DNA from: a virus
Virus record (IMG/VR): IMGVR_UViG_3300023184_000037
Span: 1-64,000 of that record
Length of the DNA stretch: 64,000 nucleotides
Reading direction: 5' to 3' (one strand)
The first letter of the stretch is position 1. Each line of letters opens with the position of its first letter. Below are positions 1,452-39,084 of the stretch, piece after piece. The notes beneath the pieces were generated by a model, which ran no database searches, was not told the origin of the DNA, and saw nothing but the letters and a program-made list of their open reading frames with translations. Made by a program: the position numbers and the translations under genes.

Positions 1452-2081
1452 ATGAAAAAAATAAAACTATTTGAAGAATTCATCAATGAAGCTTCATACG
1501 TCCCAACTGACTTAAACGATGCAGATGAGTCCAGTCAACTAGACTATATTAAAAGAAATAGTAAATACGAGACAGCGCTTGACAAAATTGAAAACCCATC
1601 AGAAAAGGTTCAACTTGCTGCGGTTAAATCAAATCCACAAGAACTACAATTTATTAAAGATCCATCTGAAAAAGTACAGATAGCCGCAGTAAGTGTAGAT
1701 TCTTATAAGTTTAAAAACACAACAACTCCGATAGATGCCAACTTTGATAATGCAATGCAGTATATTAAAGATCCATCCGAAAGGGTAAAGGTTGCCGCAG
1801 TTTCTAAGTTTGGTTATACGATTAAATATATTGAAAAACCTTCAGAGAGACTAAAAATGATGGCTATTGAAACTGATCCTGTATCGATTAAGTATATGAA
1901 AAATCCATCAGAAGAACTACAAATTGCAGCAGTATCACACCCAAGACCAAACGGTAGTATTATCATTAAACACATTGAGAAACCAACCCCAAAAGTACAA
2001 CTAATTGCAATTCAAAAAAACCCTTACATCCTAAGCGATATTAAGAACCCAACAGATGAGGTTAAGGCCTTAGCAAAATAA
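1452..2081 (+). CDS. Capsid-targeted repeat protein (seven HEAT-like repeats)
   Basis: The N-terminus KKIKLFEEFINE followed by A matches the T4 capsid-targeting peptide of the internal proteins (MKTYQEFIAE before A), which the prohead protease removes after E. Residues from about 44 to the end carry seven copies of a roughly 20-30 residue unit with the core [YF]I-x-[ND]P[ST]E-x-[VL]-[QK]-h-x-A[VI], for example FIKDPSEKVQIAAV. Such units probably form a helical solenoid of the kind that binds protein or nucleic acid. It sits in a small operon with two more genes that carry the same leader. By analogy with T4 internal proteins it may be packaged in the head and delivered into the host. Targeting is inferred; the repeats are directly visible. 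Confidence 0.65.
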   Translation: MKKIKLFEEFINEASYVPTDLNDADESSQLDYIKRNSKYETALDKIENPSEKVQLAAVKSNPQELQFIKDPSEKVQIAAVSVDSYKFKNTTTPIDANFDNAMQYIKDPSERVKVAAVSKFGYTIKYIEKPSERLKMMAIETDPVSIKYMKNPSEELQIAAVSHPRPNGSIIIKHIEKPTPKVQLIAIQKNPYILSDIKNPTDEVKALAK

Positions 2082-2093
2082 TAAACAGAAACC

Positions 2094-2327
2094 ATGAAAC
2101 ACATTAAAGTATTTGAAGATTTCAAGGACACCAATCCTGTAAACGAGTCAATGGCATTATCTCAATATTACAGAAACTCTGACAAGGAGGTAAAAGATAT
2201 TGCAAAACAAATAGATGCTATTATCAACACAGCAGATTTTGTAGTACCGTCAAGTAAAGATAAACTATTGGACCTAATCACCGACCTAACAGATGCATAC
2301 CTAGCAGATATGCGTGACGAAGAATAA
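2094..2327 (+). CDS. Small capsid-targeted protein (77 aa)
   Basis: The start MKHIKVFEDF resembles the leader of the previous gene, with NE followed by S at about residues 17-19 (PVNES) as a possible prohead-protease site. The remainder is a short, acidic, probably helical protein ending DMRDEE. No enzyme motif is visible. It lies 12 bases after the previous stop and looks co-transcribed. Its role is unknown; a packaged internal protein is the best guess. Confidence 0.5.
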   Translation: MKHIKVFEDFKDTNPVNESMALSQYYRNSDKEVKDIAKQIDAIINTADFVVPSSKDKLLDLITDLTDAYLADMRDEE

Positions 2328-2339
2328 ACCAAGCAAACT

Positions 2340-2534
2340 ATGTGGGTAATAGTAAAAATGATAACACATCATACAGGAGTCCAGTTACCGGTAATCTTGG
2401 TCGACTCCCATTCTGAAATCATGACATTTCAAATCGAGGACGAGGCTCAAAAGATGAGAGAACTTTTTGCAGCCAATTCAGATTCTGGGCATGAATACAT
2501 AGTAAAGAAATACGATACATTAAAAAGAAACTAA
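2340..2534 (+). CDS. Hypothetical protein (64 aa)
   Basis: A short protein starting MWVIVKM with two probable beta strands and a motif SDSGHEYIVKKY near the end. Similar small proteins with an SDSG-x-x-Y pattern occur in other T4-like phages without an assigned function; this is from memory and was not checked. It is placed 12 bases after its upstream neighbour and 3 bases before the next gene, inside the operon of capsid-targeted proteins, but has no targeting leader itself. Confidence 0.5.
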   Translation: MWVIVKMITHHTGVQLPVILVDSHSEIMTFQIEDEAQKMRELFAANSDSGHEYIVKKYDTLKRN

Positions 2535-2537
2535 ACT

Positions 2538-2945
2538 ATGAAACCGGTAAAACTATTCGAAGAATTCTTAAATGAGTCCCAAAAGGAGAGCGCTGCCATA
2601 CAAAAGGTAGAAGCACTTCCAAAGGGTTCCATATTTGATGATGCAAAACGAATAGACTCTATCTTCCAAATCAGCAACCGTCCCTGGAGCGAAGTAGTTC
2701 AAGCATGGGAAGAGAATCAGAAACAGGCCAAACCTAAAACTGTAAATCCTAAGGATATACAAATAACCCAAAGGAATATACAATCAAGTAAGGTACAAGA
2801 AATGATACTCCGTAAAGGACCCCTTAAAACAATTAATGTTATAGAATACCCAGAAGGAATGGTAATCCCTGATGGACACCATCGCTTAACAACAGCATGG
2901 GCACTAGGAATCACCAAACTCAAAGTCAACCTTTTAAAAGTCTAA
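2538..2945 (+). CDS. Capsid-targeted ParB/sulfiredoxin-fold protein
   Basis: 135 residues. It opens with MKPVKLFEEFLNE followed by S, the same leader as the repeat protein upstream and similar to T4 internal proteins. The C-terminal half contains IQITQRNIQSSKV, then INVIEYPEGMVIPDGHHRL, then a helix and LKVNLLKV. DGHHR with the preceding strand is the signature of the ParB/sulfiredoxin (Srx) superfamily, which includes nucleotidases, kinases and ParB-type CTPases. The combination suggests a small enzyme packaged in the head and injected, in the way T4 injects Alt, though the activity cannot be named. It is the last gene before a strong terminator. Confidence 0.6.
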   Translation: MKPVKLFEEFLNESQKESAAIQKVEALPKGSIFDDAKRIDSIFQISNRPWSEVVQAWEENQKQAKPKTVNPKDIQITQRNIQSSKVQEMILRKGPLKTINVIEYPEGMVIPDGHHRLTTAWALGITKLKVNLLKV

Positions 2946-2964
2946 TCCAACCCAAACCCCCTAC

Positions 2965-2992
2965 AGAGGACCCTAACAGGTCCTCTTTTTTT
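2965..2992 (+). terminator. Rho-independent terminator
   Basis: A perfect 8-bp stem AGAGGACC / GGTCCTCT with loop CTAACA is followed by seven T. It ends the operon 85-2945. Confidence 0.9.
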
Positions 2993-3762
2993 ATGCCCTA
3001 TCCCCAGGTCCGGCACGTCCGACATCCCCGTCCCCCACAATAAAAAACCGATAGAAATAAAACCATAAAACAAAAACATCCCAGACACCTTATACATCTC
3101 TATATAGATATACAGCATAATAAGGATATAAACCCCCTATAAGGAATCCTACTCCCCCTCCCCATCCCCATACCTCTCTAGTTTTTAAGCCCTCAATGGT
3201 CCCTTACACCCGTACCCGTAGGGACCAATCTCCAGTCAACCAGGTACCCAGGTTCTACCTTTCTTATTAAAATGATATATACCCACACCAAAAGCCCAGT
3301 AGGTCCTTCAATGGTCTCTCAATGTCACCTATAGGCCAAGTCAATGTTGATAATTGGGCCTTAAACCTCTCGTCGAGTTGGGTCACCCTCCGAGGCACTC
3401 CGGACCCTCTTTATACTCCCAGGGACCTCCCAGCGCTACCAAAATCAACCGTGACCATGCCCAGCTCCAGAAACCCCTTGCCCCTGAGGGGAAAGCAATT
3501 CTACCTTGCCCGGCCATTGGTACTACCAGCCGCCCCATCTACCGCTGGCTCAAACCGACCCCCGGTTATTGGTTACCATACAACCGACGCTACCGGTGCC
3601 ACCCGTCCCCCTTGCCCCTGCTGCAAAAACAATCCTGATTGGGCCGGCCAACATTTTTTCATTGGAAATCTGAAACTGCCAGACCCGTAACGCACGAAAT
3701 CCGGGAACACCACACTCCCGGAAGTCGCTATCTAATTAAGGCAGTAGGGTGCCAGCCGTATA
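2993..3762. other. GC-rich non-coding block 1
   Basis: About 770 bases between two converging transcription units with no convincing gene. Line 3481-3540 is 60% GC against about 30% in typical coding lines of this window. The plus strand is rich in runs of C. It holds TCAATG motifs at about 3195, 3308, 3316 and 3341, an inverted repeat TGGTCCC / GGGACCA (3198-3228) and another TCCGGGA / TCCCGGA (around 3701-3722). The open frames here have odd composition (Pro, Ser, Arg) and no recognisable domain. Motif content is shared with the block at 8615-10078. Function is unknown; a packaging, replication or recombination site are possibilities. Confidence 0.6.
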
Positions 3763-4866
3763 TTATAGTTCTACTACTGTCTTTAATTCTTCTGGTACGG
3801 CATCCTTGTCGAAACCGAATAATTTGTCGAAGGCATTACTTTCCCCAGTTAGGGCCTTTCTTTCTTCTGCTAGTACCTCGTCGTTAAATAGGTCTCTTGT
3901 ATATCTCCCTTCGTCGAAGCTAACACCGTCCTGTAATTCGAAATATAGTTTTTTACCGACCTGTCCTGTACGGTTTTTAGAGAATTCCATGAATCTTCTA
4001 CCGCTATTTTCAGAACCGTCCCAGTCCAACATCATCATCGCGGTCGTCATGTGTTTCAGTTTATTAGAACCTACGAAGTTACCACCTTTAGATAATTGCA
4101 GGATAGTTACGAACGTTGTATAGGTTTTTGTCGCATTACCACCTTTGTTATGCTGAGTCATTAGGTCTAGGAACCACTTTTCAGTTTTTGAACGGGTCAT
4201 GTTACATTCCTCCTTGATGGTGTCGTTAACCTCTGTATAAGAGTCTGTTAATACAACGTCCCATCCTTGGTGGAGTACACCTTCTATAATCCCTTTAGGA
4301 CAAGACTCTGTATAGTCAGATAGGAATAGGATAGGTAATTGTCCCCAGTGTGGGAAACGTTTAAGGTAACGGGCCATATCTATCTGGTTCATTTCAGCAG
4401 AGATGAATAGAACACGTTTTCCAGTTGCATGTAATTTACTTAGTAGTTCTAATAGCACTGTAGTTTTACCGACACCTGGAGCTCCAGCAGCCATTATATT
4501 TGTTCCAGGTAGGAAACCACCTTCAGTTGAACAAAACTGGTCGAAGATAGTTCCAGTTGGAAGGCTAGTGAATAGGGAGTCATCGATATTTAAGTCGTCC
4601 AATTTGGTTAATGTAACCTCAACTGGAGCACAAGGGTTAGAGGTTGAACCTAATGTTGAGGTCTGATAATCGTTATTATAGTCCTTATTACTTGTCCATC
4701 GCCCAGTTTCGGTAATGTTGATAACACGGTTTGCGTCTTGGTTGTCAATCCAATCGAATTTAGGGTGAGTTGGGTCAATTAGGATAGTGTTTGATTTGTC
4801 CTTAGTGTTAACTAAGATGATTAATTCTGGAGTTTGTGGGACGATGATGTAAGATTGTCTGTTCAT
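3763..4866 (-). CDS. RadA-like RecA-fold ATPase
   Basis: 367 residues. The stretch GGFLPGTNIMAAGAPGVGKTT (Walker A at 128-136) followed by RVLFISAEMNQIDMARYLKR matches the RadA/Sms and KaiC branch of RecA-fold ATPases. WDVVLTDSY (202-210) is the Walker B strand. KNRTG at 297-301 corresponds to the RadA KNRFG motif that is needed for DNA-dependent activity. No N-terminal zinc finger or C-terminal Lon-like domain is seen, so it is shorter than cellular RadA. A role in branch migration or as a helicase loader/helicase is likely. It has its own strong promoter upstream. A DnaB-type helicase core is the main alternative. Confidence 0.65.
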   Translation of the reverse strand: MNRQSYIIVPQTPELIILVNTKDKSNTILIDPTHPKFDWIDNQDANRVINITETGRWTSNKDYNNDYQTSTLGSTSNPCAPVEVTLTKLDDLNIDDSLFTSLPTGTIFDQFCSTEGGFLPGTNIMAAGAPGVGKTTVLLELLSKLHATGKRVLFISAEMNQIDMARYLKRFPHWGQLPILFLSDYTESCPKGIIEGVLHQGWDVVLTDSYTEVNDTIKEECNMTRSKTEKWFLDLMTQHNKGGNATKTYTTFVTILQLSKGGNFVGSNKLKHMTTAMMMLDWDGSENSGRRFMEFSKNRTGQVGKKLYFELQDGVSFDEGRYTRDLFNDEVLAEERKALTGESNAFDKLFGFDKDAVPEELKTVVEL

Positions 4867-4875
4867 AATGTGGTG

Positions 4876-4951
4876 TTTTAATTAGATATGTAAATATAAT
4901 CAATAAGTTTGAAAGGGGAAAACTTTAAGTGTTAAATTTTTGTTAAAGTTT
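4876..4951 (-). promoter_or_regulatory. Bipartite Bacteroidota-type promoter
   Basis: Read on the minus strand, the -7 box TATATTTAC (4890-4898) is followed by ATATCTAATTAAAAC. The -33 element GTTTTCCCC (4915-4923) lies exactly 16 bases upstream of it. Further up lies a copy of the ACTTTAACAAA-type element (4931-4951). It drives the RadA-like gene. Confidence 0.75.
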
Positions 4952-5427
4952 TATGCAAGTTTTTCTAATTGCATAAGTGCTTTACCCCAGATAGGAGCAA
5001 TTTTCTGAGAAATTCTCTTACCATAAGCAGAGTATGCTATACCTTGGTTCCAAAGGAAATGCTCATAGTCATAACCATATTGTTCTACTGCACCTTCAGC
5101 GATCCAACGTAAGGCAGTAACCTCATCACGGGCACCCATTTGAATGGTATTCTCTATAAGAGCTTGGAAGGCTTTATCAGCTTCGAACTCAGCAGCTAAT
5201 TCCTCTTCACGGTTATCAGCACAAACTTGTTCAAAACGGGCGAAATCAGCCTCCAGTTCCTCAGTTGTTAAGGCATATACATTAATAGTACGAGGACGGA
5301 AACCGTAGGCATCCTTATGGAAATCCGAATATAGGAGAATCATATTCTCTCTGTGAGACAACTCATAATTATGAGCCAATTTAGATTCGATTTCGTTTGC
5401 TTCGGTGATTTGTGATTGTGTCATCAT
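4951..5427 (-). CDS. Conserved hypothetical protein (158 aa)
   Basis: A soluble, acidic, mostly helical protein with the stretch LLYSDFHKDAYGFRPR near residue 30-46 and a C-terminal aromatic helix region. SDxHKDxxGxRPR motifs are common in unassigned phage proteins. No catalytic signature is recognised. It has its own copy of the bipartite promoter and is separated from the next minus-strand gene by a second promoter, so it is probably an independently regulated, early, highly expressed gene. Confidence 0.6.
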   Translation of the reverse strand: MMTQSQITEANEIESKLAHNYELSHRENMILLYSDFHKDAYGFRPRTINVYALTTEELEADFARFEQVCADNREEELAAEFEADKAFQALIENTIQMGARDEVTALRWIAEGAVEQYGYDYEHFLWNQGIAYSAYGKRISQKIAPIWGKALMQLEKLA

Positions 5428-5441
5428 GGTGTTTCTTTGTT

Positions 5442-5518
5442 TTAATTAGATATGTAAATATAATACAATTCCATGAATCCGGAAACTTTAAAGTGTTAAA
5501 TTTATGTTAAAATTTCAC
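5442..5518 (-). promoter_or_regulatory. Bipartite Bacteroidota-type promoter
   Basis: On the minus strand: -7 box TATATTTAC (5454-5462), -33 element GTTTCCGG (5479-5486) 16 bases upstream, and an upstream TTTAACA-type repeat (5493-5517). It is placed just before the 158-aa gene. Confidence 0.75.
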
Positions 5519-5545
5519 ATAAAAAAAGGGACCTTTCGGTCCCTT
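5519..5545 (-). terminator. Rho-independent terminator
   Basis: On the minus strand an 8-bp stem AAGGGACC / GGTCCCTT with a GAAA tetraloop is followed by seven T. It lies 20 bases downstream of the stop of the 378-aa gene and directly upstream of the next promoter, so it insulates the two units. Confidence 0.9.
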
Positions 5546-5565
5546 GGATAATATCTGTTTGGCTC

Positions 5566-6702: not shown

Positions 6703-6711
6703 AGTTATAAG

Positions 6712-6726
6712 ATTTTAGATTTATAT
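6712..6726 (-). promoter_or_regulatory. Second-class leader/promoter element ATATAAATCTAAAAT
   Basis: The identical 15-mer occurs on the other strand at 10055-10069. In both places it ends exactly 9 bases before the ATG. It differs from the TATATTTAC promoters and recalls the T4 late TATAAATA box. Function is inferred from identity and spacing only. Confidence 0.5.
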
Positions 6727-10339: not shown

Positions 10340-12310
10340 ATGACCAAGAAGACAAATACTCCTTTTATTGACCAATTCGGGGAGGACTTAACTAAACTAG
10401 CAATGGATGGGAAACTTGACCCTATCATCGGAAGAGAAAAGGAAGTATATAGAATATGCCAAATCCTTTCTCGTAGAAAGAAAAACAACCCAATTATTTT
10501 AGGGGATCCTGGTGTCGGTAAAACTGCCCTGGTTGAAGCAATTGCACAACGAATTGTCGAAAAGAAAGTTGCAATGACTCTTCTTAATAAACGTATAATC
10601 GCCCTGAATATTGCAAATGTGGTAGCAGGTACAAAATACCGTGGAGAATTCGAAGAGCGAATGAAAAACATTGTTGATGAACTTAAAGAAAACCCAGACG
10701 TTATTGTGTTTATTGATGAGATTCACACGATTGTAGGTGCTGGTGGTGTAAGTGGTTCATTAGACGCAAGTAATATCTTAAAGCCGGCATTGGCAAGAGG
10801 ACAAGTACAATGTATTGGTGCCACAACAATCGATGAGTATCGTGAAAATATTGAAACAGATGGGGCTCTTACCCGAAGATTCCAAGAAATCTTTATAGAC
10901 CCACCATCACTTGATGATGCAATTGAAATCTTAGATAGAATCAAACCGAACTACGAAGACTTCCATTCAGTATCATATACACCTGAGGCTATTAAAGCCT
11001 GTGTAATGTTATCTGACCGATATATTACTCAACGAGAATTACCGGACAAAGCAATCGATATTATGGACGAGGCTGGGGCAAAAGTTCACCTAAAAGAGGT
11101 TAAAATTCCGGAGATTATTAAAAAACTTGAAATCGAAGCCGATAGTTTAAAATCTCAAAAATTGAAAGCTGCTGACGCTACTGATTATGAAAAAGCCGGT
11201 AAATTTAGAGACCTTGAAATAGCTAAAAGAGAAGATATAACAAAAAGAACCAAACAATGGGAGGAGACGCTTAGACTAAATAAGAAAGCAGTAACTTATG
11301 AAGATATTGCTGAAGTAATTTCGGAATCTACTGGAATTCCTGTAACAAGAATGACCGATGACGAGAGCAGAATTGTTATTGATATGGAAAATGAATTAAA
11401 ATCTATGATTATAGGACAAGATACTGCGGTTGAAGGTCTATGTAGAGTTATTAAAAGAAGCCGAACTGGAGTAAGTTCATCTAAAAAACCTATTGGTTCA
11501 TTTATGTTTATCGGACCTACTGGAGTTGGTAAAACTGAAACTGTTAAAGCCCTTTCTGAATATTACTTTGGAAGCGAGGATTCTCTAATTAGAATCGACA
11601 TGTCAGAATACCAAGAAAAGTTTAATGTAAGTAGACTTATTGGTTCTCCTCCGGGATACGAAGGACATGAGGATGGTGGACAGTTAACTGAACAAGTTAG
11701 ACGTAAACCATATTCTGTAGTTCTATTTGATGAGGTTGAAAAAGCCCACCCAGATATTTTCAATATATTGTTACAAGTTTTAGATGAGGGACGTTTAACT
11801 GATACTCTTGGTAGAACTGTTGACTTTACAAATACTATCATTATTATGACTAGTAATGTTGGAGCAAAACGAGTTGCAGAATTCGGAGCTGGAATTGGAT
11901 TCTCAAGTTCAAGTTCTACTGCTACCCATAAAATGCAAATGGAAACAGTTATCCGAAAAGAACTTAAAAACAAATTCGCACCGGAATTCTTAAATAGACT
12001 TGACGAAATTGTATTGTTTGACGGACTAAAACAAGAAGATGTTGCTAAAATCGCCGAAATCGAAATCGAAAAGGTAATTGAGAGAATGGCCGAGCAGGAT
12101 TATGTTATTAAAGTTGCAAAAACTGCGATAGTATTTTTAGCAGAGCGTGGATATGATGCCCAATATGGAGCTAGACCTCTTAAAAGAGCAATTCAAACAT
12201 ACGTTGAAGACTTATTAGCAGATTGCATATTATCTAAAGAAGTCGTTAAAGGGAGTAAAACATACACAATATCCCATAAAAAAGGAGATGAGAAACTTTC
12301 TGTTAAATAA
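10340..12310 (+). CDS. ClpC/ClpA-like AAA+ unfoldase lacking the N-domain
   Basis: 656 residues with two AAA+ modules. Module 1 has Walker A GDPGVGKT (55-62) and Walker B VIVFIDEIH (121-129). Module 2 has Walker A GPTGVGKT (392-399) and Walker B VVLFDEVEKAHP (460-471). Between them DYEKAGKFRDLE (282-293) is a UVR-like ClpC middle-domain motif. The protein starts at the linker that in ClpC precedes module 1, so the usual N-terminal adaptor and substrate domain (about 140 residues) is missing. The loop MTSN...GAGIGFSS carries IGF at 519-521, where ClpA and ClpC carry their ClpP-docking tripeptide. A ClpP gene lies 1.2 kb downstream on the same strand. It should unfold proteins and feed them to ClpP. 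Confidence 0.93.
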   Translation: MTKKTNTPFIDQFGEDLTKLAMDGKLDPIIGREKEVYRICQILSRRKKNNPIILGDPGVGKTALVEAIAQRIVEKKVAMTLLNKRIIALNIANVVAGTKYRGEFEERMKNIVDELKENPDVIVFIDEIHTIVGAGGVSGSLDASNILKPALARGQVQCIGATTIDEYRENIETDGALTRRFQEIFIDPPSLDDAIEILDRIKPNYEDFHSVSYTPEAIKACVMLSDRYITQRELPDKAIDIMDEAGAKVHLKEVKIPEIIKKLEIEADSLKSQKLKAADATDYEKAGKFRDLEIAKREDITKRTKQWEETLRLNKKAVTYEDIAEVISESTGIPVTRMTDDESRIVIDMENELKSMIIGQDTAVEGLCRVIKRSRTGVSSSKKPIGSFMFIGPTGVGKTETVKALSEYYFGSEDSLIRIDMSEYQEKFNVSRLIGSPPGYEGHEDGGQLTEQVRRKPYSVVLFDEVEKAHPDIFNILLQVLDEGRLTDTLGRTVDFTNTIIIMTSNVGAKRVAEFGAGIGFSSSSSTATHKMQMETVIRKELKNKFAPEFLNRLDEIVLFDGLKQEDVAKIAEIEIEKVIERMAEQDYVIKVAKTAIVFLAERGYDAQYGARPLKRAIQTYVEDLLADCILSKEVVKGSKTYTISHKKGDEKLSVK

Positions 12311-13191: not shown

Positions 13192-13493
13192 TTGAGTGCA
13201 TGAAAACCAAGCTAAACATACCGGAATTCTATATAAATCAAGGTGGATTTGATTCAATTACTAGTGACTGCGAATTTCACGACAGAATTGTAGATTTTAT
13301 TGAAACAAATATTGACAAAGAAAATGCAGAAACTTTGCTATGCTATTTTGTACATGAAACCGGAGATATACAATCTGCCGAACTTCCAAAGGGTTCGTAC
13401 AAGCAGTCAATATTAAAAAGCCTAGAATTTTACGTTAAAAACGAAAAGTACGAAAAGTGCAAGCAAATTAAAAACCTATTAAAGAAACTATAA
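13188..13493 (+). CDS. Small YEKC-motif protein A (101 aa)
   Basis: It starts at ATG inside the stop of the previous gene. The C-terminus SLEFYVKNEKYEKCKQIK is shared with three other small proteins of this window (18749, 20119, 20467): an aromatic helix, then E-x-YEKC-x-x-[IL]-K. The pattern resembles a UVR helix hairpin, such as occurs in UvrB, McsA and ClpC. It sits between the ThyA-family gene and clpP, overlapping both. Function is unknown; an adaptor for the neighbouring ClpC/ClpP is one idea. Confidence 0.55.
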   Translation: MIECMKTKLNIPEFYINQGGFDSITSDCEFHDRIVDFIETNIDKENAETLLCYFVHETGDIQSAELPKGSYKQSILKSLEFYVKNEKYEKCKQIKNLLKKL

Positions 13494-14179
13494 TGAATCA
13501 CGGGAAAGAATTCGAAAGATACGCAATGTTAGACAAGGGTGTAAGTTCAATGAACATGCACTACTATAAAAAACAAATCGAAAATTCAATGACTCCATAT
13601 ATCTTGGAAGAGAGAGAAATGAGAGCAACTCAATTGGACATTTTTTCGAGATTAATGATGGATAGATTATTATGGGTTGCAGGACCTGTTAATGACAATA
13701 TGTCAACTATAGTCCAAGCTCAATTAATGTTTTTAGATAGCACCGATGACCGAGATATAACAATGCACATTGATAGTCCTGGAGGTTCAGTAAAATCTGG
13801 ACTTTCTATGGTTGACGTTATGGAATGGATTAAATCCGATATTAGAACCGTAAACACTGGTATGGCGGCTTCGATGGGTTCAGTACTATTAGGAGCTGGA
13901 ACTAAAGGTAAAAGAAGTTCACTAAGACATTCAACAACAATGTTGCACCAATCTTCAGGAGGATTCAGTGGAAATATACAAGACGCTGAAATCGACTGGG
14001 CAGAATGGCAAAAAGTTAACAAAGAACTATTTAATTTATTAGGAGCATATTGCGATAAAAAACCAGAACAGGTTATGAAAGACGCGACGAGAGATTTATG
14101 GTTAAACGCAGAAGAGGCGCTTAGTTATGGTATCATCGACGAGATTATTAATCCTGGTAAATTAAAATCTAAAAAATAA
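13493..14179 (+). CDS. clpP: ClpP-type serine protease
   Basis: 228 residues. HIDSPGGSV forms the oxyanion region, GMAASMGS carries the nucleophile S127, MLHQ the catalytic H152, and TRDLWLNAEEALSYGIID the catalytic D201, so the triad is complete. A roughly 40-residue N-terminal extension precedes the ClpP core. The start ATG overlaps the previous stop by one base (TAATG). A partner unfoldase with an IGF loop is encoded just upstream. It should form a tetradecameric chamber that degrades unfolded proteins in the cytoplasm. A prohead-protease role is less likely because an ATPase partner is encoded alongside. Confidence 0.93.
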   Translation: MNHGKEFERYAMLDKGVSSMNMHYYKKQIENSMTPYILEEREMRATQLDIFSRLMMDRLLWVAGPVNDNMSTIVQAQLMFLDSTDDRDITMHIDSPGGSVKSGLSMVDVMEWIKSDIRTVNTGMAASMGSVLLGAGTKGKRSSLRHSTTMLHQSSGGFSGNIQDAEIDWAEWQKVNKELFNLLGAYCDKKPEQVMKDATRDLWLNAEEALSYGIIDEIINPGKLKSKK

Positions 14180-19304: not shown

Positions 19305-20126
19305 ATGAATTACTACGAAACTCTTAACGTTTCAAAAGATGCTACTCCAGAAGAAATCAAAAAATCTTATAGGAAGCTTGTAAAAGAGCATCATCCCGAC
19401 AAAACAGGGGGAGACGATTCAAAATTTAAACAAATATCCGAAGCATACGAAACTCTTTCTGACCCTGTCAAAAAAGAGCAATATGATAATAAGTCTAGAG
19501 GATATTCTCCATTTGGTGGCGGATTTCAAGACACCTCAAATCCTTTTGCACATGCTTTTCGAGGATTTGGTGGAGATTTTGCTGACATGTTTAATCAATC
19601 ATTTGGTGGAGAGGCAAGAGGACACGATGTTAGAATTTCGATGAATATTACCCTTGAAGAATCTTACGAAGGTGTCAGAAAATATATCGATGTCGGGACT
19701 GGTGGATTTAATATCAATATACCTCGAGGAATTTATAGTGGAACAAAACTTAAAGTTCCAGGTCGAGGAGCCCCACATCCTGTAAATTCATCTGCACCTC
19801 CTGGTGATATTATTCTGACTATCAATGTTTTACCAGACCCTGAACTTATTGTTAATGGTAGTGACATCTATGTTGAATTAACCCTAAGCTGGATTGACCT
19901 CTTACTTGGTGGAGAATTTGAAGTCCATACCAAACTAAATTCCCTAAAAATTAAAGTTCCTCAAGGTTCTCATGATTCAAAACTCTTGCGTGTTGTTGGA
20001 CAGGGAATGCCAATATATAACGCAGAAGGATTCGGAAATCTTATGGTAAAACTTAGAACACTTCCCGTAAATTTATCCGAATCTGAAATAGAATTACTCA
20101 AAAAAATAAAAAATCAAAATGAGTAG
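19305..20126 (+). CDS. DnaJ/CbpA-like co-chaperone
   Basis: 273 residues. The J-domain has YYETLNVSKDATPEEIKKSYRKL and the HPD motif (H30-D32). A Gly/Phe-rich linker (GGFQDTSNPFAHAFRGFGG) follows, then two C-terminal beta domains (NINIPRGIYSGTKLKVPGRG and LKIKVPQGSHDSKLLRVVGQG). There is no cysteine zinc-finger repeat, so it is of the CbpA (type II) class. It should stimulate a host Hsp70 ATPase. It is coupled to the next gene by an 8-base overlap and lies near ClpC and ClpP homologues, so it may help present substrates. Confidence 0.92.
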   Translation: MNYYETLNVSKDATPEEIKKSYRKLVKEHHPDKTGGDDSKFKQISEAYETLSDPVKKEQYDNKSRGYSPFGGGFQDTSNPFAHAFRGFGGDFADMFNQSFGGEARGHDVRISMNITLEESYEGVRKYIDVGTGGFNINIPRGIYSGTKLKVPGRGAPHPVNSSAPPGDIILTINVLPDPELIVNGSDIYVELTLSWIDLLLGGEFEVHTKLNSLKIKVPQGSHDSKLLRVVGQGMPIYNAEGFGNLMVKLRTLPVNLSESEIELLKKIKNQNE

Positions 20127-20728: not shown

Positions 20729-20742
20729 ATACAAATTTGTAT
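20729..20742 (+). repeat. 14-bp palindrome at the PhoH start
   Basis: ATACAAATTTGTAT is a perfect palindrome whose last two bases are the first two of the ATG at 20741. It may be an operator or a start-codon-masking hairpin. Confidence 0.55.
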
Positions 20743-21505
20743 GCAAAAAAGAACGGTGGAAAGTAAATCAAGATCGACTAAGGCAAAGCCAAAAACTACG
20801 TCTACAGCCGCTAAAAATCCAGTTGGACGTCCTAAAAAAACAGTAGTTAAAGAATTAGATTTAGTCGGAGTTCAATTAAAACCAGGACAATATGATTATT
20901 TTGAAAAAATCAAAAAGAATGAAATAACATTCTGTTCCGGTCCAGCAGGTACTTCAAAAACATTTACTGCATGTTACACTTCACTATGGTTATTAGCGAC
21001 TCAGGCAGTTTCAAAAATTATATTATGTAAACCAATTCAAGAATCCGGAGAGAAACTTGGATTCCTACCTGGAGATATTGCAGACAAGGTCGACCCGTAC
21101 ATGCAATCATATATTTCAAACTTTAAAAAAATAGTAGGTGATGAATTAACAGAAGGACTAATCGCTTCAGGAGCTATCGAATTTAAACCACTAGCGTTTA
21201 TGAGAGGTGATACGTTTGACGATTCGTTCATGATTCTAGATGAAGCCCAAAATGCTTCGTTTAAACAATTAATGTTATTTACGACCCGTATGGGTAAAAA
21301 TTCTAAAGTTCTGGTAACTGGAGACGTTAGTCAATATGATATACCAAAAGCCAGCGCTGGTCTTCCAGGATTCATGCAATTAATGAAGGGAATTAAAGGA
21401 ACTGGAGAACATGTTTTTGAAAATAAAGATATTGTAAGAGCTAAAATACTTCAAGATGTTGTAGACAGATATGACAAATGGAGAGTTGAAAATCCTGAAA
21501 AATAA
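20741..21505 (+). CDS. phoH: PhoH-like P-loop ATPase
   Basis: 254 residues. Walker A GPAGTSKT (67-74), the KPIQESGEKLGFLPG segment and Walker B MILDEAQN (164-171), followed by TGDVSQ, are diagnostic of PhoH. The first 35 residues are lysine-rich and contain NPVGRPKK, an AT-hook-like GRP core that would bind A/T-rich DNA. PhoH proteins are common in phages; RNA helicase or ribonuclease-associated roles are proposed. It is followed closely by RNase HII, which fits a nucleic-acid processing set. Confidence 0.9.
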   Translation: MQKRTVESKSRSTKAKPKTTSTAAKNPVGRPKKTVVKELDLVGVQLKPGQYDYFEKIKKNEITFCSGPAGTSKTFTACYTSLWLLATQAVSKIILCKPIQESGEKLGFLPGDIADKVDPYMQSYISNFKKIVGDELTEGLIASGAIEFKPLAFMRGDTFDDSFMILDEAQNASFKQLMLFTTRMGKNSKVLVTGDVSQYDIPKASAGLPGFMQLMKGIKGTGEHVFENKDIVRAKILQDVVDRYDKWRVENPEK

Positions 21506-23440: not shown

Positions 23441-24358
23441 ATGGGAGCTAACTACGGATATTGTTGCATAAATTTGACTCTGGACAAGAGTGGTATTAAA
23501 ATCGGGCGTTCAATGATTAAAAAAACATTTGCTGCGAAAGGTATCAAATATGCTGGAGAACTTGCAGAGGCAAATCTCCGTGACATGATAGAAATTATTA
23601 AATGGAATCATAAGAACGGAATCAAAGTGTACCGTATGTCTTCTAATATGTTTCCATGGATGTCAGAATACGAACTTACTGATTTGCCAAACTGGCCAAC
23701 AATCCAAAATTTACTAAAAGGTGCCGGTACTCTTGCACTAAAATACGGTCAACGTATTGGTTTCCATCCTGGGCAGTTTTGCGTATTGCCTAGCCCAACT
23801 CAAAAAACGGTCGATGCTACTGTAAAAGAACTTGACCAATCTGCATTTATATTAGATACTATGGGCCTTCCGGTAAATCAACTCTATCCGATGAATATCC
23901 ATGTTGGTGGTTCTTATGGTGACAAAGAAGCTGCAATCCTTCGATTCATCGAAAATTTCAAATTGTTATCACCTTCTGCCCAAGCCCGTTTAATCCTAGA
24001 AAATGACGATAAACCTGCGCAATATTCAGTAAGTGACCTTTACCGAATTTATCAAGCAATCGGTACACCTATAACATTTGATTACCATCACCATAGATGT
24101 TACAATGACCCTATGCCGGAAGAGGAAGCAATTCGTTTAGCAGCATCTACATGGCCCAAAGGAATTCGTCAATTGTGTCACTACTCAAGCGCCAAGAAAT
24201 TACATGAAGACCCTACTGCTATTATCAGGGCCCATGCTGATTACCTATACGAATCAATCAATACTTACGGCCTGGAAATAGATATCGAAATAGAGGCCAA
24301 AGCAAAAGAATTGGCTCTCCAAAAATACCAAAAAGAATATATACTCTGTGAAAAATAA
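23441..24358 (+). CDS. uvsE: UV damage endonuclease (UvdE/UvsE)
   Basis: 305 residues, a TIM barrel typical of UvdE: YGYCCINLTL at the start, VYRMSSNMFPWMSEY, RIGFHPGQFCVL, NIHVGGSYGDK, LILENDD, FDYHHHRC and CHYSS. The His, Glu and Asp residues in HPGQ, HVGG, LENDD and FDYHHHR are the metal ligands of this family. The enzyme nicks 5' of UV photoproducts and starts alternative excision repair. The length is usual for bacterial UvsE. The following gene overlaps its end. Confidence 0.93.
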   Translation: MGANYGYCCINLTLDKSGIKIGRSMIKKTFAAKGIKYAGELAEANLRDMIEIIKWNHKNGIKVYRMSSNMFPWMSEYELTDLPNWPTIQNLLKGAGTLALKYGQRIGFHPGQFCVLPSPTQKTVDATVKELDQSAFILDTMGLPVNQLYPMNIHVGGSYGDKEAAILRFIENFKLLSPSAQARLILENDDKPAQYSVSDLYRIYQAIGTPITFDYHHHRCYNDPMPEEEAIRLAASTWPKGIRQLCHYSSAKKLHEDPTAIIRAHADYLYESINTYGLEIDIEIEAKAKELALQKYQKEYILCEK

Positions 24359-24691: not shown

Positions 24692-25174
24692 ATGGCAAGT
24701 ATTAAAAAATTCGACGAATTTGTTTCAGAAATGGACAGAGCCGAGGAAATAGAACAAGACATTGTTGCTAAAGGAACACCTGAAGTTAAATCTGAAGAGG
24801 AAGCAGAAGAGGAAGCAGAAGAGGTTCAAGGAGTATCTGAAGCAGGTGAAGCAATAATTGGAGATGATGCTAAAAAAATCAAAGAGGAAACTAAACCTGT
24901 TGCTGACATGTTAAAAGAATGTTACGAAGCAGTTATTGCAGAAGCTAAAGCGTGGGAAGAAGATGCACATGATGAGCATACTGTAGAAACTTATATGGCT
25001 GAAAATGCATCACTTGTTGCGGGTATGGCGGCTAATTGTGTTAAAGAGATGAAAGAAAACATGGAATCTGAAGCCTATGAAGCATGCTTAAATAAAATGA
25101 GCGAAGCTTTCAGTAAGAAAATTAATGAAAGTAAAGAGGCTACGGCTGCTACTGACGCTGACGATATCAACTAA
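24692..25174 (+). CDS. Acidic capsid-targeted protein (160 aa)
   Basis: It starts MASIKKFDEFVSE followed by M, a looser version of the FEEF[IL]NE leader seen in four other genes here and in T4 internal proteins. Next is a Glu-rich run (SEEEAEEEAEEVQ), then an alpha-helical, acidic domain. No enzyme motif. It is preceded by an ATATAAAATCTAAA element. It may be a packaged internal or scaffold-core protein. Confidence 0.5.
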   Translation: MASIKKFDEFVSEMDRAEEIEQDIVAKGTPEVKSEEEAEEEAEEVQGVSEAGEAIIGDDAKKIKEETKPVADMLKECYEAVIAEAKAWEEDAHDEHTVETYMAENASLVAGMAANCVKEMKENMESEAYEACLNKMSEAFSKKINESKEATAATDADDIN

Positions 25175-33906: not shown

Positions 33907-34625
33907 TGGCAACAGATACCGAATTAGAAAAGGATAATATTAGAGAAACTCACTGGATTGGTGAGGTTGTTGACAATGCGGATCCTAAAGACTGGGGAAG
34001 ATGTAGAGTTAAAGTATTTGGGAAGTTTGATAAACTACCCAATGATGCAATTCCATGGGCAACTCCAATGAATAGAGACTTTGCAGGTGCACACCATACT
34101 CCAAATGTTGGAACAATTGTTGCAGTTCGTTTTGACAATGGAAATCTTTATCACCCTGAATATTGGTTTCAAATCAATCAAAGTAAAGCACTTAAAGCTG
34201 ACATTCTTGAAAAATCAGGTGCAGCGCATAATGTAGTTTCATTAGTATATGATGAAGTAAGAAATGTTAGAATCTATCACTCACCTGAAGATGGATTGGT
34301 AATTACCCGAGGAACTGGAGCTAAAGAAAGACCATTAATTCAAATTGATGAGAAGGGATATATTAAAATTTCGACTAGTGAAAAAATATTCCTTGATTCT
34401 GGAAATGTATTCTTAAGTAACACTGGAGAGGGAAGTGAAAATGAAGATGAACCTACAGTACGTGGAGTCTCTCTAGAAAAATGGTTAAATAAATTATTGG
34501 ATGATTATAAAGCCCATATTCACCCAACACCAACTGGACCGTCAGGTCCGCCTTCGCCACCGACTCCTTCGACAGTTTCAAGTCTTAAGAGTTCACATAT
34601 CACATATCAGCAAAGGAATAAATAA
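33906..34625 (+). CDS. gp5-like central spike protein (OB fold)
   Basis: 239 residues. IGEVVDNADPKDWGRCRVKVFG, LPNDAIPWATPMNR, HHTPNVGTIVAVRFDNG and YHPEYWF give the OB-fold pattern of gp5/Phage_base_V proteins. The middle part carries beta-helix-like repeats (IQIDEKGYIKISTSEKIFLDSGN), the shaft of the spike. The tail is Pro/Thr-rich. There is no lysozyme domain. It would cap the tube and puncture the outer membrane. It directly follows the hub cluster. Confidence 0.8.
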   Translation: MATDTELEKDNIRETHWIGEVVDNADPKDWGRCRVKVFGKFDKLPNDAIPWATPMNRDFAGAHHTPNVGTIVAVRFDNGNLYHPEYWFQINQSKALKADILEKSGAAHNVVSLVYDEVRNVRIYHSPEDGLVITRGTGAKERPLIQIDEKGYIKISTSEKIFLDSGNVFLSNTGEGSENEDEPTVRGVSLEKWLNKLLDDYKAHIHPTPTGPSGPPSPPTPSTVSSLKSSHITYQQRNK

Positions 34626-34656
34626 TTGGGATAAATATCCTATAAATTAACTCAAT

Positions 34657-36930
34657 ATGCCTGCACAGTGGCCGATATTTATTAACAACCTTTCTCAAAA
34701 ACTGGCCAGTAGAACTTCTAAAGGGCCGGACGATATTGGTATGTTTGTTGCTAATGAATATTTTAATGCAGTTAAAACTTCACAAACTCCATTTGGAAAT
34801 ATACACAAATCTGGACAGAAAGCAATACTTGAAACTGGATTTAAAAAGGCATTCAATATGCTATTCAAATCTCTTGAACCTCAACTAGAAGATAAATTTG
34901 GAAATCCACCATACGATGATATGTTTGAAAATTTACCTGGTGTAGATTTAAGCGTAAATCCAGACTGTGACTTCCAAGAGTGGACTATTAAAAACAAGGA
35001 AACTATAGACCCATTTGAATTCTATCCCCTGTTTCCTACAACATGTATAATTCCAAAGCCAATAGTCCCACCTACAAATCTATATGGAGATATCGACATA
35101 ACTTCCGAAAATGTTGACTCTCAACCAGAACTACGATATGTTACAATGACGGTTGAAGGTGGTGGTGGAACCTTTCCATACGAATTTACATATTCATTAA
35201 ATGGAGTAATACAACCAACATTGACTTCTGATAGTCAGGGAGTTGTAAAGTTTTTAGCTCCTACTGATGTTGGAAAATGGGATTACACATTTATTAGTGC
35301 AATAGACGCATCTAAAAGAGAAGAGATTAAAAATATAGATAGAAGTGCTTCGATTGAAATTAAAAAAGATCCGAAAGCAATCGATATTAAAGTTGATCCA
35401 CCAAAACCATTTCCTTTAGTAAAGCCGATGACTGAGGCTCAGCAAATTGATGAGCTAGCAAATAGAGTATACTATCAAAATGACGGAACCGAAGAATATC
35501 TTGATTGGGTTGAAAGACTTTCATACCATGGTAAATTTGCGGCTAAAGTAAGCAAAAAAGTTTTAACTCTTTTAGATACTGAAACCAATGAAATAAAAAA
35601 GTCGACTGGAATAGTTGGTATACCGCAGGCAAGTTCTGCCGGGGCTGTTGCTACTAACAACGTTAACTTCTACGATAAGATTAATCTGATTGAAAATACT
35701 ATTAAAAAGGCACAAGACAAACTTGATAAATTAAATAAAGCGGATCCTCCTCCTGTAACTAATAGATTAGGTGATGTAGTTTCAAATAATAATCAATCTA
35801 AACCTAAAGTCGACCCAATTGAAAAGGCATATGCAAAGGTTGAGCTCCTACAAGCAAAAATTTTACTAGAAAAAACGTATATAGCAGCAGCTCAAAGATC
35901 GAATAGTGGTTATATTGATACCTATAGAAATGATAGAATTGAAAGCTTAACTAAGGAACTTTCATTAGAATTACAAATAGTTAATGTTGAAATTCTTAGA
36001 AAAAATCTTAATGAAATTAAAGATGTCAATTCAATTGACTATATAATGGCTAAGATTCGTTTATATCAAAATGAATTAACAATTGCAACATATAAAAAAG
36101 ATGATAGAAAAATAGACTCCTTAAATAGGGAGTTGACGGTGCAAGCTCTTCGAGTTATTAAGCTTAAGAATAAAATTAAAAAAGAGGCGGCTACTAATGA
36201 TCGGCTATTTCAAGAGGAATATGACGACAGACCTGATATTATGCCAACATTTATAACTTCTAATTTTATTTGTATTTTTACGTACGTTAATGGAATTGAT
36301 GACAATCAAAAGAGTGCTCCGGATAAAAATCCTTTAATTGCACTTACAACATCAACATCTAGCTCTGGATATAGTAATAATACATTTGGTAGCACTTGGG
36401 GTAATTCAAAACCAGAAACGTATTCAGAATGGTCCCGAAGAACCGAACCTGGGCGTATAAGAGCAAAGGGGATTAGATATGAACTTGAAAAGGTTAGATA
36501 TAGAGAGTTAAAAATCAGGCATATCAATCAAATTGCCGAAGATAATAAAAAGGCTGGAAACCTATGTGGAGCCGATGATGCTTATTGTGTGATGTCAAAA
36601 TGTATAATTGACTATTGGAAATCTACAGCAGCCCAGCCATTTGCAAAGTCACCGCCAATATTACCTTGTTTAATACCAGATCCTGGAAGTTACATTCCAG
36701 TATATTATGGAGATGAGGCAAAACTAGGTGCAGATTTGAGAAGAGCATGGAATACAGGTAAGCGATTTAAAATGGAGCCAACCTTACAAACTGCAACAAA
36801 AGCAGTTGCGACCGCGGTTGCAGTATCATGCGCAAGGCACTTATTGGACCTTAAGTTTATATATAGTGGAAAGATTCCAGCAGGTACTGGTACCGCCCCG
36901 ATGATAGGATTTTCACCATTGGCCCTATAA
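34657..36930 (+). CDS. Large baseplate-region structural protein (757 aa)
   Basis: An alpha-helical N-terminus (PAQWPIFINNLSQKLASRTS), a beta domain with GGGGTFPYEFTYSLNGV (Ig-like, about 165-235), a long charged helical stretch (340-520) likely to be a coiled coil, and a Cys-containing C-terminal domain. It is placed between the spike and the S1-like gene. The Ig-like domain plus coiled coil suggests a virion protein. The exact role is unknown. Confidence 0.5.
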   Translation: MPAQWPIFINNLSQKLASRTSKGPDDIGMFVANEYFNAVKTSQTPFGNIHKSGQKAILETGFKKAFNMLFKSLEPQLEDKFGNPPYDDMFENLPGVDLSVNPDCDFQEWTIKNKETIDPFEFYPLFPTTCIIPKPIVPPTNLYGDIDITSENVDSQPELRYVTMTVEGGGGTFPYEFTYSLNGVIQPTLTSDSQGVVKFLAPTDVGKWDYTFISAIDASKREEIKNIDRSASIEIKKDPKAIDIKVDPPKPFPLVKPMTEAQQIDELANRVYYQNDGTEEYLDWVERLSYHGKFAAKVSKKVLTLLDTETNEIKKSTGIVGIPQASSAGAVATNNVNFYDKINLIENTIKKAQDKLDKLNKADPPPVTNRLGDVVSNNNQSKPKVDPIEKAYAKVELLQAKILLEKTYIAAAQRSNSGYIDTYRNDRIESLTKELSLELQIVNVEILRKNLNEIKDVNSIDYIMAKIRLYQNELTIATYKKDDRKIDSLNRELTVQALRVIKLKNKIKKEAATNDRLFQEEYDDRPDIMPTFITSNFICIFTYVNGIDDNQKSAPDKNPLIALTTSTSSSGYSNNTFGSTWGNSKPETYSEWSRRTEPGRIRAKGIRYELEKVRYRELKIRHINQIAEDNKKAGNLCGADDAYCVMSKCIIDYWKSTAAQPFAKSPPILPCLIPDPGSYIPVYYGDEAKLGADLRRAWNTGKRFKMEPTLQTATKAVATAVAVSCARHLLDLKFIYSGKIPAGTGTAPMIGFSPLAL

Positions 36931-36970
36931 AACAAATATATAATTTATTAACCTTTTAAAAATAATAACG

Positions 36971-38185
36971 ATGTCACAAGACGTTTTAACAAAACAAACA
37001 GAGAATTCTTTAAACGATATCTCTAACTTCGATTGGGATGCATACGCTGCAGATTGCCCATCTACTCTTAGAAAAATAAACCACCATGTAAAAGCTCCAG
37101 ACGGGGTTAAGGTGTATTCTAGAGAACCTTACGCCCAAGAACTTCTTAATTTAATGGAAAGTCACTGGAGCGAAAACACACAAACGCATACAATAAACGC
37201 CGGAGAAACACATACCGGTAAAGTCTACGCAGTAGACATGGAATGGGCATCTATCGATATTGGATATCGCGAGATGGTATACGTTCAATTGTCAAAAGAA
37301 TCCGCAATTTCAAGAGCGAGATTAGTTCCTGGAACTGAAATATCGGTTGAAATCACGGCAGAAAAAAGTAAAAGTACTCGAGGATTTGTATTGGGTTCTG
37401 TAGAAGCTGGTATTAAAGCCGCTACCCTAAGAGAAATCTTAGCAGCCGCTGAAACTGGAAATACTGCCTATATGGGAACTGTAACAAGTATGATTCCAGG
37501 TGGAGGTTACTTTGTTAACGTACAAGGAGTTGATTGTTTCATGCCGGGATCTCTAGCAGGTATTAATAAACTTGCAGACTTTGGTTCTGTAATTAACACT
37601 CAAATGTACGTAGTACCGATGAGTTACTCTCCTGAAAAAGGAACAGTAATTGTATCTCACCGAAAATATCTTCAAGCGCTTATTCCAAATGCAATTGAAG
37701 ACCTTAGAAATAATCCTGGAGAAACTAAAGAGGGTAACGTTACAGGTTCTACAAAATACGGAGTATTTGTTGAATTTGATGGTTGTTTAACTGGAATGAT
37801 TCATGCAAATGATTTAAACCCAGAAATGGCAAGAAAACATAAGGCTAGAGAAATTAATCCAGGCGATGTTATTGAATTTAAGATTAAAGAGATAATCAAT
37901 AATGATAAAATAACGTTGACTCAATTAGAGCATGTCGAAATTAGCGACCCATGGGCTGATGTTGCGACTAAGTATAAAAGCTTTCCAGTTGAAGTTAAAG
38001 GTACAATAAAATCTGTTAAAGATTATGGAGTATTTGTGGATGTTGGAGATGGTATTGTTGGATTACTTCATGTATCTGAACTTCCTGATAACGTTAAAGT
38101 GGATTCACTTGTTAAGAATGATAATATCACCGTTCAAATTACAAGAATGGACGTTGCAACCCGAAAAGTATTCTTAAAACTATAA
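36971..38185 (+). CDS. Ribosomal protein S1-like protein (Bacteroidota type)
   Basis: 404 residues. The N-terminus contains NFDWDAYAAD, which resembles the NFDWDAYE-like start of Bacteroidota S1. Four S1/OB repeats follow: HTGKVYAVDMEWASIDIGYR, YMGTVTSMIPGGGYFVNVQG, KEGNVTGSTKYGVFVEFDG and VKGTIKSVKDYGVFVDVGDG. Cellular S1 in this group usually has five or six repeats, so this one is shorter. S1 unfolds mRNA at the ribosome; in Bacteroidota, where Shine-Dalgarno pairing is rare, it matters more. The phage version may favour phage mRNA. It stands among baseplate genes, with its own terminator. It is probably of host origin. Confidence 0.9.
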   Translation: MSQDVLTKQTENSLNDISNFDWDAYAADCPSTLRKINHHVKAPDGVKVYSREPYAQELLNLMESHWSENTQTHTINAGETHTGKVYAVDMEWASIDIGYREMVYVQLSKESAISRARLVPGTEISVEITAEKSKSTRGFVLGSVEAGIKAATLREILAAAETGNTAYMGTVTSMIPGGGYFVNVQGVDCFMPGSLAGINKLADFGSVINTQMYVVPMSYSPEKGTVIVSHRKYLQALIPNAIEDLRNNPGETKEGNVTGSTKYGVFVEFDGCLTGMIHANDLNPEMARKHKAREINPGDVIEFKIKEIINNDKITLTQLEHVEISDPWADVATKYKSFPVEVKGTIKSVKDYGVFVDVGDGIVGLLHVSELPDNVKVDSLVKNDNITVQITRMDVATRKVFLKL

Positions 38186-38268
38186 TTGTTAATAACTTTT
38201 TGAAAATATTTAAGCCCAGATTTTTTTATCTGGGTTTTTTTGTTTATATTTACATTATAATTAAAACA
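38186..38268 (+). promoter_or_regulatory. Bipartite Bacteroidota-type promoter
   Basis: Upstream element TTGTTAATAACTTTTT (38186-38201), a T-rich -33 position inside the terminator stem (TTTTTTTA, 38221-38228), then 16 bases to the -7 box TATATTTAC (38245-38253) and ATTATAATTAAAAC. It drives the capsid-targeted gene at 38281. Confidence 0.65.
38215..38241 (+). terminator. Rho-independent terminator of the S1 gene, embedded in a promoter
   Basis: Stem CCCAGAT (38215-38221) / ATCTGGG (38228-38234), loop TTTTTT, then seven T. The T tract ends just before the -7 region of the following promoter. Confidence 0.85.
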
Positions 38269-38280
38269 GATATATAAAGC

Positions 38281-39084
38281 ATGAATAAATTTAAAACATA
38301 CGGACAATTCATTAACGAGTCAAATCAGAATAATATTGTTAATGTTATTTTAGATTCGTTGGAACCTACAATTGTTGAGATGTTAGCTGCAACTGAAAAA
38401 TGGTTTGTTGAGACTTTTAAACAGGAGTTCACCAAGTATGACAGAGAGATGGCTAGAATCAATTTAACCTATGATATGGTTAAATCTATTGAAATGTACA
38501 CATTGCCAACCGATTCACTGTTATCAATGAACGTACGTAAGAGTGTTAAAGGAAATATTCAAATTGATGCTCAAATCCAAAGAGGAGAAGAGACTTACAG
38601 TTTTTCTACCGAGGCTATTTATGCAGGAGGACATAACATCCAAAGACTTCACTATAGATATATTGTTAAGACAAATATTCCAAAAACTGGCGCTAGCGAA
38701 ATCGCTAAAGAATATGCTGAGAAAATTAAGAAAATGTCTAAGCTTGAAAAACTGAATAAAGAAATTGAAAGTTACGAGATTAGAATTAAAAGAACCGAAG
38801 AAAAAATTGAAGTAAATTCAAAATTGAATGACGATGAAATACTGAATGTTTTAAAGTCTGGTAAAGATTGGTACGAATGGCCAACGTGGTCTGAAATTGT
38901 AAAGAGAGATGCTGCTAAGAATTATGACAATGATGAAAACGTATTCAACCAAAAACAAAAAGAAAGCATGGACTTTAAGATAAAATTCTGGAAGGATATG
39001 AATGTTGATTCACAGAGAAAATACCTTGCAGACTATCAAAAAACCGTTAAAAAACTACAAGCAAAACGGGATTCTATTGTATAG
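38281..39084 (+). CDS. Capsid-targeted coiled-coil protein (267 aa)
   Basis: The start MNKFKTYGQFINE followed by S is very close to the T4 internal protein leader MKTYQEFIAE before A. The rest is a mixed domain with a charged coiled coil from residue 160 (LEKLNKEIESYEIRIKRTEEKI) and no catalytic motif. It has its own promoter. It is most likely a prohead core or injected internal protein, processed after the leader by a prohead protease encoded elsewhere. Confidence 0.6.
   Translation: MNKFKTYGQFINESNQNNIVNVILDSLEPTIVEMLAATEKWFVETFKQEFTKYDREMARINLTYDMVKSIEMYTLPTDSLLSMNVRKSVKGNIQIDAQIQRGEETYSFSTEAIYAGGHNIQRLHYRYIVKTNIPKTGASEIAKEYAEKIKKMSKLEKLNKEIESYEIRIKRTEEKIEVNSKLNDDEILNVLKSGKDWYEWPTWSEIVKRDAAKNYDNDENVFNQKQKESMDFKIKFWKDMNVDSQRKYLADYQKTVKKLQAKRDSIV

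Follow-up and report, generated by a model that had tools for sequence, protein, structure and literature searches.

A probable T4-type capsid-targeting leader is shared by head-module proteins and a large, changing cargo in a metagenomic virus and its relatives

Why do several genes in one stretch of viral DNA begin with nearly the same short segment? The question arises in the first 64,000 bases (the window) of the 145,137-base IMG/VR virus record IMGVR_UViG_3300023184_000037, where a preliminary description had listed five genes (at 1452, 2094, 2538, 24692 and 38281) with a common N-terminal leader, likened this leader to the start MKTYQEFIAE of the T4 internal proteins, and read the group as candidate early host-takeover effectors that may be cut by a prohead protease and injected with the DNA. 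In this study, we found that the leader is present on many more genes of the record and very probably represents a T4-type capsid-targeting sequence (CTS), which would dock proteins on the prohead core, be cut after a glutamate, bring them into the head and let them leave with the DNA, as one label for head-module proteins and changing cargo. On the best reading, a T4-type CTS appears to have grown into a cargo system whose dialects differ between lineages.

In the translations, the motif [FY]xx[FY][ILV][NS]E occupies residues 7-13 in four of the five genes (1452, 2538, 24692 and 38281). The claim of a shared leader holds for these four and only in part for 2094, in which FxxF is followed further on by VNES; I and E are missing from their usual leader positions, and VNES fits only the looser "NES" clause of the earlier motif. 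Scanning of all 619 open reading frames (ORFs) of at least 40 amino acids in the whole record revealed that the full leader, [FY]xx[FY][ILV]xE, starts 17 of them, all leader-like. Thirteen of these lie beyond the window, spread over 68-140 kb and mostly grouped at 76.8-85.1 kb (Table 1). Thus, a search for the leader elsewhere in the genome, which had been proposed at the outset, was productive, and the first count of five genes was too low. The FxxF spacing is also present near the N-terminus of 2094 and of 116756, besides the 17 full-motif ORFs.

Chance origin of the leader was ruled out by shuffling of N-termini (0.3-0.6 expected vs. 16-18 for the broad and start-anchored motifs). In 12 of the 172 non-overlapping ORFs, the narrow motif [FY]xx[FY][IVL][NS]E fell within the first 25 residues (mean of 0.09 and maximum of 2 over 1000 shuffles within the N-termini), and elsewhere in the proteins there were three internal matches in ~40,900 positions. 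The N-terminal 25 residues of the same ORFs contained the broad motif 18 times (shuffle mean 0.56, maximum 4 over 1000), and it occurred nine times elsewhere, one of the 18 ORFs (40445) being judged not leader-like; the start-anchored motif was observed 16 times (shuffle mean 0.3, maximum 2 over 300). Codons at the fixed leader residues differ synonymously (TTC/TTT for F10, GAA/GAG for E13), and therefore constraint acts on the protein level.

The leader is also conserved among orthologs found by the body alone. Queries with the leader removed were run for 38281, 2538 and 24692, and distinct N-termini were counted, apart from loci whose start could not be read and ten weak 38281 matches (L485-L494). 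Full leaders were kept in 48 of 55 ortholog N-termini, comprising 17 of 21 for 38281 (of the four without it, L484 matches only weakly and in part), four of four for 2538 and 27 of 30 for 24692, whose three other orthologs are divergent and retain FxxF. Orthologs of 38281 retained the leader at body identity down to 64% (L474) and 48% (L478).

In viral contigs, the strict leader pattern occurred in at least 119 stretches and at least 154 sites, and a scrambled version gave no match. We clustered 161 leader proteins without their leaders at E 1e-3 (142 from strict-pattern loci and 19 from this record, two partial ones included); among the matches listed, the bodies formed at least 87 unrelated clusters, 57 of which were singletons. 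With one member per cluster, 85 clusters among these matches could be read at the residue after E, a position outside the search pattern: S in 25, A in 23, K in 8, N in 6, G in 6 and others in fewer. S or A was present in 48 of the 85, compared with ~12% expected (p 3e-22). A looser pattern yielded 356 matches across 46 records (reversed control, 0), of which only match numbers and strand are informative for the 40 records picked for holding the leader; up to 22 matches were found in one 234-kb contig. With an even looser pattern, five megaphages (462-735 kb) that had been recruited via another gene showed 37, 41, 58, 42 and 42 matches (reversed control in the same records: 14, 21, 5, 21 and 11, respectively), and starts in the 735-kb record include MIKKYIQFINE and MKKFSQYINE.

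A gp21-like protease, also suggested for search in the preliminary description, was identified in the record, which holds portal (gp20), protease (gp21) and capsid (gp23) types in T4 order with a small ORF between gp20 and gp21 (profile matches: Portal_T4, 1e-70; gp23-type capsid protein, 5e-41). The S77 prohead protease family PF03420 matched at 117218-117562 (E 2e-13 to 1.2e-11) and a phrog head maturation protease at 9e-43; the active-site motifs GELDHP and ISSRAAG align to GELNHP and VSSRGLG of T4 gp21 in every clade row. The small ORF, 116756 (MKIIKTFEQFTSSLQED), sits between portal and protease, which is the gp67/68 slot according to the T4 annotation, and contains FxxF followed later by LxE/IxE instead of the canonical end. 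The leader is also present on 119080, another ORF of the head-assembly module. The protease-scaffold protein itself contains two of the three internal narrow-motif matches, at residues 211-217 (YSKYLSE) and 493-499 (FFKFISE), which are possible self-processing sites.

Similar cassettes were found in relatives. S77 was over the cut-off in 24 of 45 records, and 20 portal-protease cassettes were fetched, some of them near-duplicates, among which the slot ORF carried a leader in 17, including L147, whose leader was seen in an ORF dropped by the filter. Ten of the 17 slot leaders had the canonical F[IV]xE end and seven had FxxF and then a later LxE/IxE (SLQE, SLKE, KIDE). In all 20 capsid proteins (the record's own and 19 others), LYE followed by D or N, or LNE followed by S, was present upstream of the core. 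The frequency of S77 was higher in leader-bearing than in control records, both at >=60 kb (30/45 vs. 7/30, Fisher p 0.0003) and at >=130 kb (19/19 vs. 5/9, p 0.006), the controls being 30 records >=60 kb that were reached via unrelated P-loop (a set poor in long contigs) and deaminase patterns and taken from displayed loci only, with further loci of both scans, some >60 kb, left out. No true leader was present in the 30 control records, the single pattern match containing an in-frame stop. Because control records with S77 do not have it, the leader was rejected as a general marker of S77 phages.

The likeness to T4 proved sound: ipII and ipIII both start with MKTYQEFIAE (AF158101), with the same spacing, and were recovered by the leader pattern together with gene 61.1. 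Ten residues are enough to package T4 IPIII; of these, residues 4/7 act in targeting and 8/10 in processing, and D at position 10 blocks cutting and leaves targeting unaffected; gp21 cuts after L/I-x-E, and the T4 core proteins are among its substrates (PMC9026906, partial text). The leader described here has the same four key positions in Y/FxxFIxE spacing, shifted by three residues, and the same predicted I/L-x-E cut site, and it occurs on unrelated bodies in a genome whose S77 protease gene belongs to a cassette of the gp20-67-68-21-23 type. On the other hand, it is three residues longer (usually MKxIK-L/T ahead of the first F/Y), full-motif starts number 17 in this 145-kb fragment vs. 3 in T4, and a long scaffold-like tail extends the protease (639 vs. 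212 amino acids). For the T4 capsid protein gp23, FLTE followed by A ends the propeptide, whose length is 65 residues (PMC9026906, partial text). T4 gene 61.1 itself (AF158101, 18966-19130, minus strand; 54 amino acids, hypothetical) starts with MKTFKEFIKE in the manner of ipII/ipIII, and its product is a candidate for an unrecognised T4 internal protein.

Phage PAU provides an independent comparison. Its capsid maturation protease aligns to S77, its gp23-type capsid protein is 32% identical to the one in this record, and one short leader stands atop many unrelated proteins. No PAU ORF carried the FxxFIxE leader, and 19 of its 290 ORFs start with MK.[LIM]..L[FY]E or a near form, with no similarity among the bodies. 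Five genes in the whole PAU annotation are named "internal capsid protein" (gp70, gp142, gp154, gp199 and gp270), and all except gp70 bear this leader (hypergeometric p 6e-5). The label was probably not derived from the leader, because only four of the 19 leader genes are labelled and one labelled gene is leaderless. N-terminal sequencing gave a mature PAU capsid protein of 520 residues out of 585 (PMC5646251 Table 1, partial text); the nearest L/I-x-E is LME64 (predicted cut after ALME64, ahead of N), one residue off the sequenced mature start.

If the leader acts as a T4-type CTS, its FxxF residues would attach a freshly synthesised protein to the prohead core (scaffold/protease), the docked protein would be enclosed as the capsid shell forms, and the gp21-like S77 protease would cut after the E of [ILV]xE, usually ahead of S/A. 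This cut would remove 13 residues and set the mature protein free inside the head, from which it would exit with the DNA at infection. The same label would serve head-module proteins and a large, changing cargo, which in relatives may include likely counter-defence proteins (the Tad3 family and Acb1-like proteins). What is read from sequence is the leader, how often it recurs on unrelated bodies, its retention by orthologs, the protease and T4-type head genes, and the cut-site signature; from these we infer that the proteins are docked, cut, packaged and injected. Targeting to the capsid and cleavage by the prohead protease, as first proposed, are well supported by inference from the T4 spacing, the S77 protease, the slot protein, S/A after E and phage PAU.

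Other roles for the leader were weighed. It might only recruit head-building proteins to the prohead core, to be digested or retained there without delivery to the host; the leader on the head-cassette proteins (116756 in the slot, 119080) and on the acidic 24692 family would fit such a role, as would the placement of T4 gp67/gp68 in the core, whose proteins gp21 cleaves (T4 annotation; PMC9026906, partial text). However, the unrelated body clusters are too many for structural parts, and several bodies in relatives are enzyme-like or counter-defence-like (Tad3 in L060, 4.8e-22; Acb1-like 2H enzymes; cytidylyltransferase-like, GNAT and ATP-grasp proteins), so that we consider this role unlikely. 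A short N-terminal segment could also bind many partners and might route proteins uncut to another target, such as a replication compartment, a membrane or a host factor. This is quite improbable given that the fixed I/L-x-E with S/A next to it is a protease signature, that FxxF-I-x-E matches the T4 CTS spacing, and that the PAU leader tracks "internal capsid protein". Finally, leaders at 1452 and 76848 match 81% over 42 bases, which might reflect recent duplication or exchange of gene starts, with a functionless DNA repeat placed ahead of genes; yet the residues are constant while synonymous codons vary, and the leader is retained in the body-found 38281 orthologs at the identities given above. 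The repeat was rejected on codon variation, and we give it hardly any credence.

Several observations weigh against a T4-type CTS, or at least complicate it. The slot leader was absent in three of the 20 cassettes (L143, L149 and L161), and the presumed capsid cut site (LYE followed by D/N; LNE followed by S in L143) falls close to the T4 gp23 site in the alignment rather than at it. S77 was not detected in 15 of 45 leader-bearing records, all of which are <130 kb and may be fragments. Since 7/30 controls carry S77 without a true leader, the protease and the leader appear to be loosely coupled outside the clade. Lysine follows E in 8/85 body clusters. The PAU leader belongs to another dialect (MK[ST][LI]xxLYE in place of FxxFIxE), PAU gp70 ("internal capsid protein") as well as gp1 and gp10 ("internal capsid vertex") are without it, and "internal capsid protein" is an annotation label whose basis is unstated in the record. 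For the FxxFIxE dialect, packaging and cleavage are sequence-based predictions in this phage and its relatives alike.

What the leader might deliver is best seen in relatives. The Tad3 family was over the Pfam cut-off in 7/49 records, with a full leader in five of the seven (L567 has D replacing E, and L563 has no leader), and the Acb1 family gave 20 matches in 19/49 records, 15 of them with a full leader, including three megaphages with their own dialect, and one of them the leaderless Acb1 of T4; these counts are partly circular, as the majority of the 49 records entered the set because of the leader, some of them via that very gene. When genes used for selection were excluded, a full leader was present in 3/5 Tad3 proteins (one of the others with D for E, one leaderless) and in 7/11 Acb1-like proteins (three others with FxxF and a later (L/I)xE, one with neither). 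Both HxT motifs were invariant in 11 aligned Acb1-like sequences. The Acb1 profile was over the cut-off in 17/49 records including T4, and under it in L108 (3.6e-5); an Acb1-like model matched Acb1 in PDB entry 7t27 at E 6e-5, and other 2H phosphoesterases matched equally well. Neither Tad3 nor Acb1 was found by family search of the window's own record. It is these relatives, and none of the five window genes, that support delivery of immune-blocking proteins by the leader. In six records (G004, G014, G016, G022, G040 and G071), Tad3 and Acb1-like genes are ~1 kb from each other, with leaders on most copies, and the pair is likely a small counter-defence island.

The view of the five genes as host-takeover effectors goes too far, because the leader also marks the head-module proteins 116756 and 119080 and because 24692 resembles a core component; a takeover function was assigned to none of the five, and searches of Pfam and phrog profiles gave no convincing family of known effector or counter-defence domains for any of them.

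We lean slightly towards a broader proposal, that in the largest known phages a lineage-specific label loads dozens of unrelated proteins per head, including ready-made Acb1-like and Tad3 blockers of cyclic-nucleotide and cADPR immunity that would disarm the cell ahead of all phage gene expression, with dialects (FxxFINE, YxxYIKE, LxxLYE) that are probably scaffold-matched. If so, matched dialects would make the virion cargo of metagenomic phages readable from sequence. Functions are known for only a minority of the genes in giant metagenomic phages, and a short, readable label on proteins delivered by the virion would sort many of them together and point to counter-defence proteins acting at the moment of entry. 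According to a 2026 review (PMC13282480, partial text), phage phiKZ injects Tad1, a blocker of CBASS and Thoeris, and no anti-defence protein other than Tad1 has been described in jumbo phages; the Tad3 and Acb1-like proteins with the leader would contribute two further classes as candidates for delivery.

Compared by description, PhiKZ and SPN3US also have their own prohead protease that cuts after E, and ejection into the host has been suggested for many of the head proteins matured in this way (PMC10052503, partial text). In contrast, SPN3US propeptides are mostly long (111-254 residues), and no short common leader is reported in the text examined. In phage P1, the anti-restriction protein DarB enters the capsid by means of a capsid targeting signal, which is also able to carry a reporter (PMC9024508, partial text). 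The routing of an anti-restriction protein into the head is similar, whereas the signal belongs to a large Dar-system protein and no many-gene leader is described in the text examined. Within the limited literature covered, there was no printed occurrence of FEEFINE, FEQFINE, LFEEFLNE, LFEQFVNE, FEQFVNE or MKHIKLFE and no report of the leader.

The bodies of the window genes are diverse. That of 1452 consists of DUF4116/HEAT-like repeats (Pfam DUF4116 5e-5 and HEAT 8e-4, each under the curated cut-off), matches phrog_5925, a family of unknown function, at 1.5e-34, and had no ortholog among the fetched loci. A single ortholog of 2094 was found there, with 170 amino acids, the start MKHIKVFEDFANEA and 98% identity across 57 amino acids, of which 2094 looks like a shortened form. 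The 2538 body has a weak ParB-like stretch (DGHHR; phrog ParB-like match of 0.0023 only). In 24692, V occupies the I/L position of the processing site, and this conserved, very acidic protein is probably of the prohead core/scaffold type. For 38281, the AlphaFold model (predicted local distance difference test score, 86.6) shows the leader as a short helix, and a fold search against PDB gave nothing significant (best match, E 0.12). An NCBIfam search of 1452, 2538 and 38281 gave nothing useful.

Table 1. Coordinates of leader-bearing genes and other features, numbered from the first base of the record
Feature	Coordinates	Strand	Length	Remarks
1452	1452-2081	+	209 aa	Leader 1452-1490, MKKIKLFEEFINE followed by A; predicted cut E13/A14
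2094	2094-2327	+	77 aa	Partial leader MKHIKVFEDFKDTNPVNES; FxxF at 7-10, VNE followed by S at 16-19
2538	2538-2945	+	135 aa	Leader 2538-2576, MKPVKLFEEFLNE followed by S
24692	24692-25174	+	160 aa	Leader 24692-24730, MASIKKFDEFVSE followed by M; very acidic
38281	38281-39084	+	267 aa	Leader 38281-38319, MNKFKTYGQFINE followed by S; conserved body of unknown function
Full-motif ORFs inside the window	1452, 2538, 24692, 38281			
Full-motif ORFs beyond the window	68151, 76809, 77123, 77679, 78958, 81334, 83675, 84282, 84796, 100694, 102862, 119080, 139850			n = 13; leader Met of 76809 at 76848
S77 protease ORF	117158-119077		639 aa	Long scaffold-like tail; T4 gp21, 212 aa
ORFs with C-terminal FExF	79438-81309, 86745-87293, 140442-140951			
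Amidoligase_2 family protein	39137-40429			Adjoins 38281
Clp-type AAA ATPase, ClpP-like protease, DnaJ, PhoH, UvdE endonuclease and S1-domain protein (as a group)	10340-12310, 13493-14179, 19305-20126, 20741-21505, 23441-24358, 36971-38185			

The FExF core was also observed at C-termini (MTFEQFINKDI, FKSFEDFIKD and MFEEFKNLD; record ORFs in Table 1; L003, L004, L007). It is retained in orthologs of the first two (orthologs in L030, L037, L040, L048, L071, L080, L012 and L099), and possibly serves as a C-terminal targeting signal.

The window also encodes a group of Clp-type, DnaJ and other proteins (Table 1). The Amidoligase_2 family protein next to 38281 (1e-7) has relatives in the 462-735-kb phages, with 31-43% identity.

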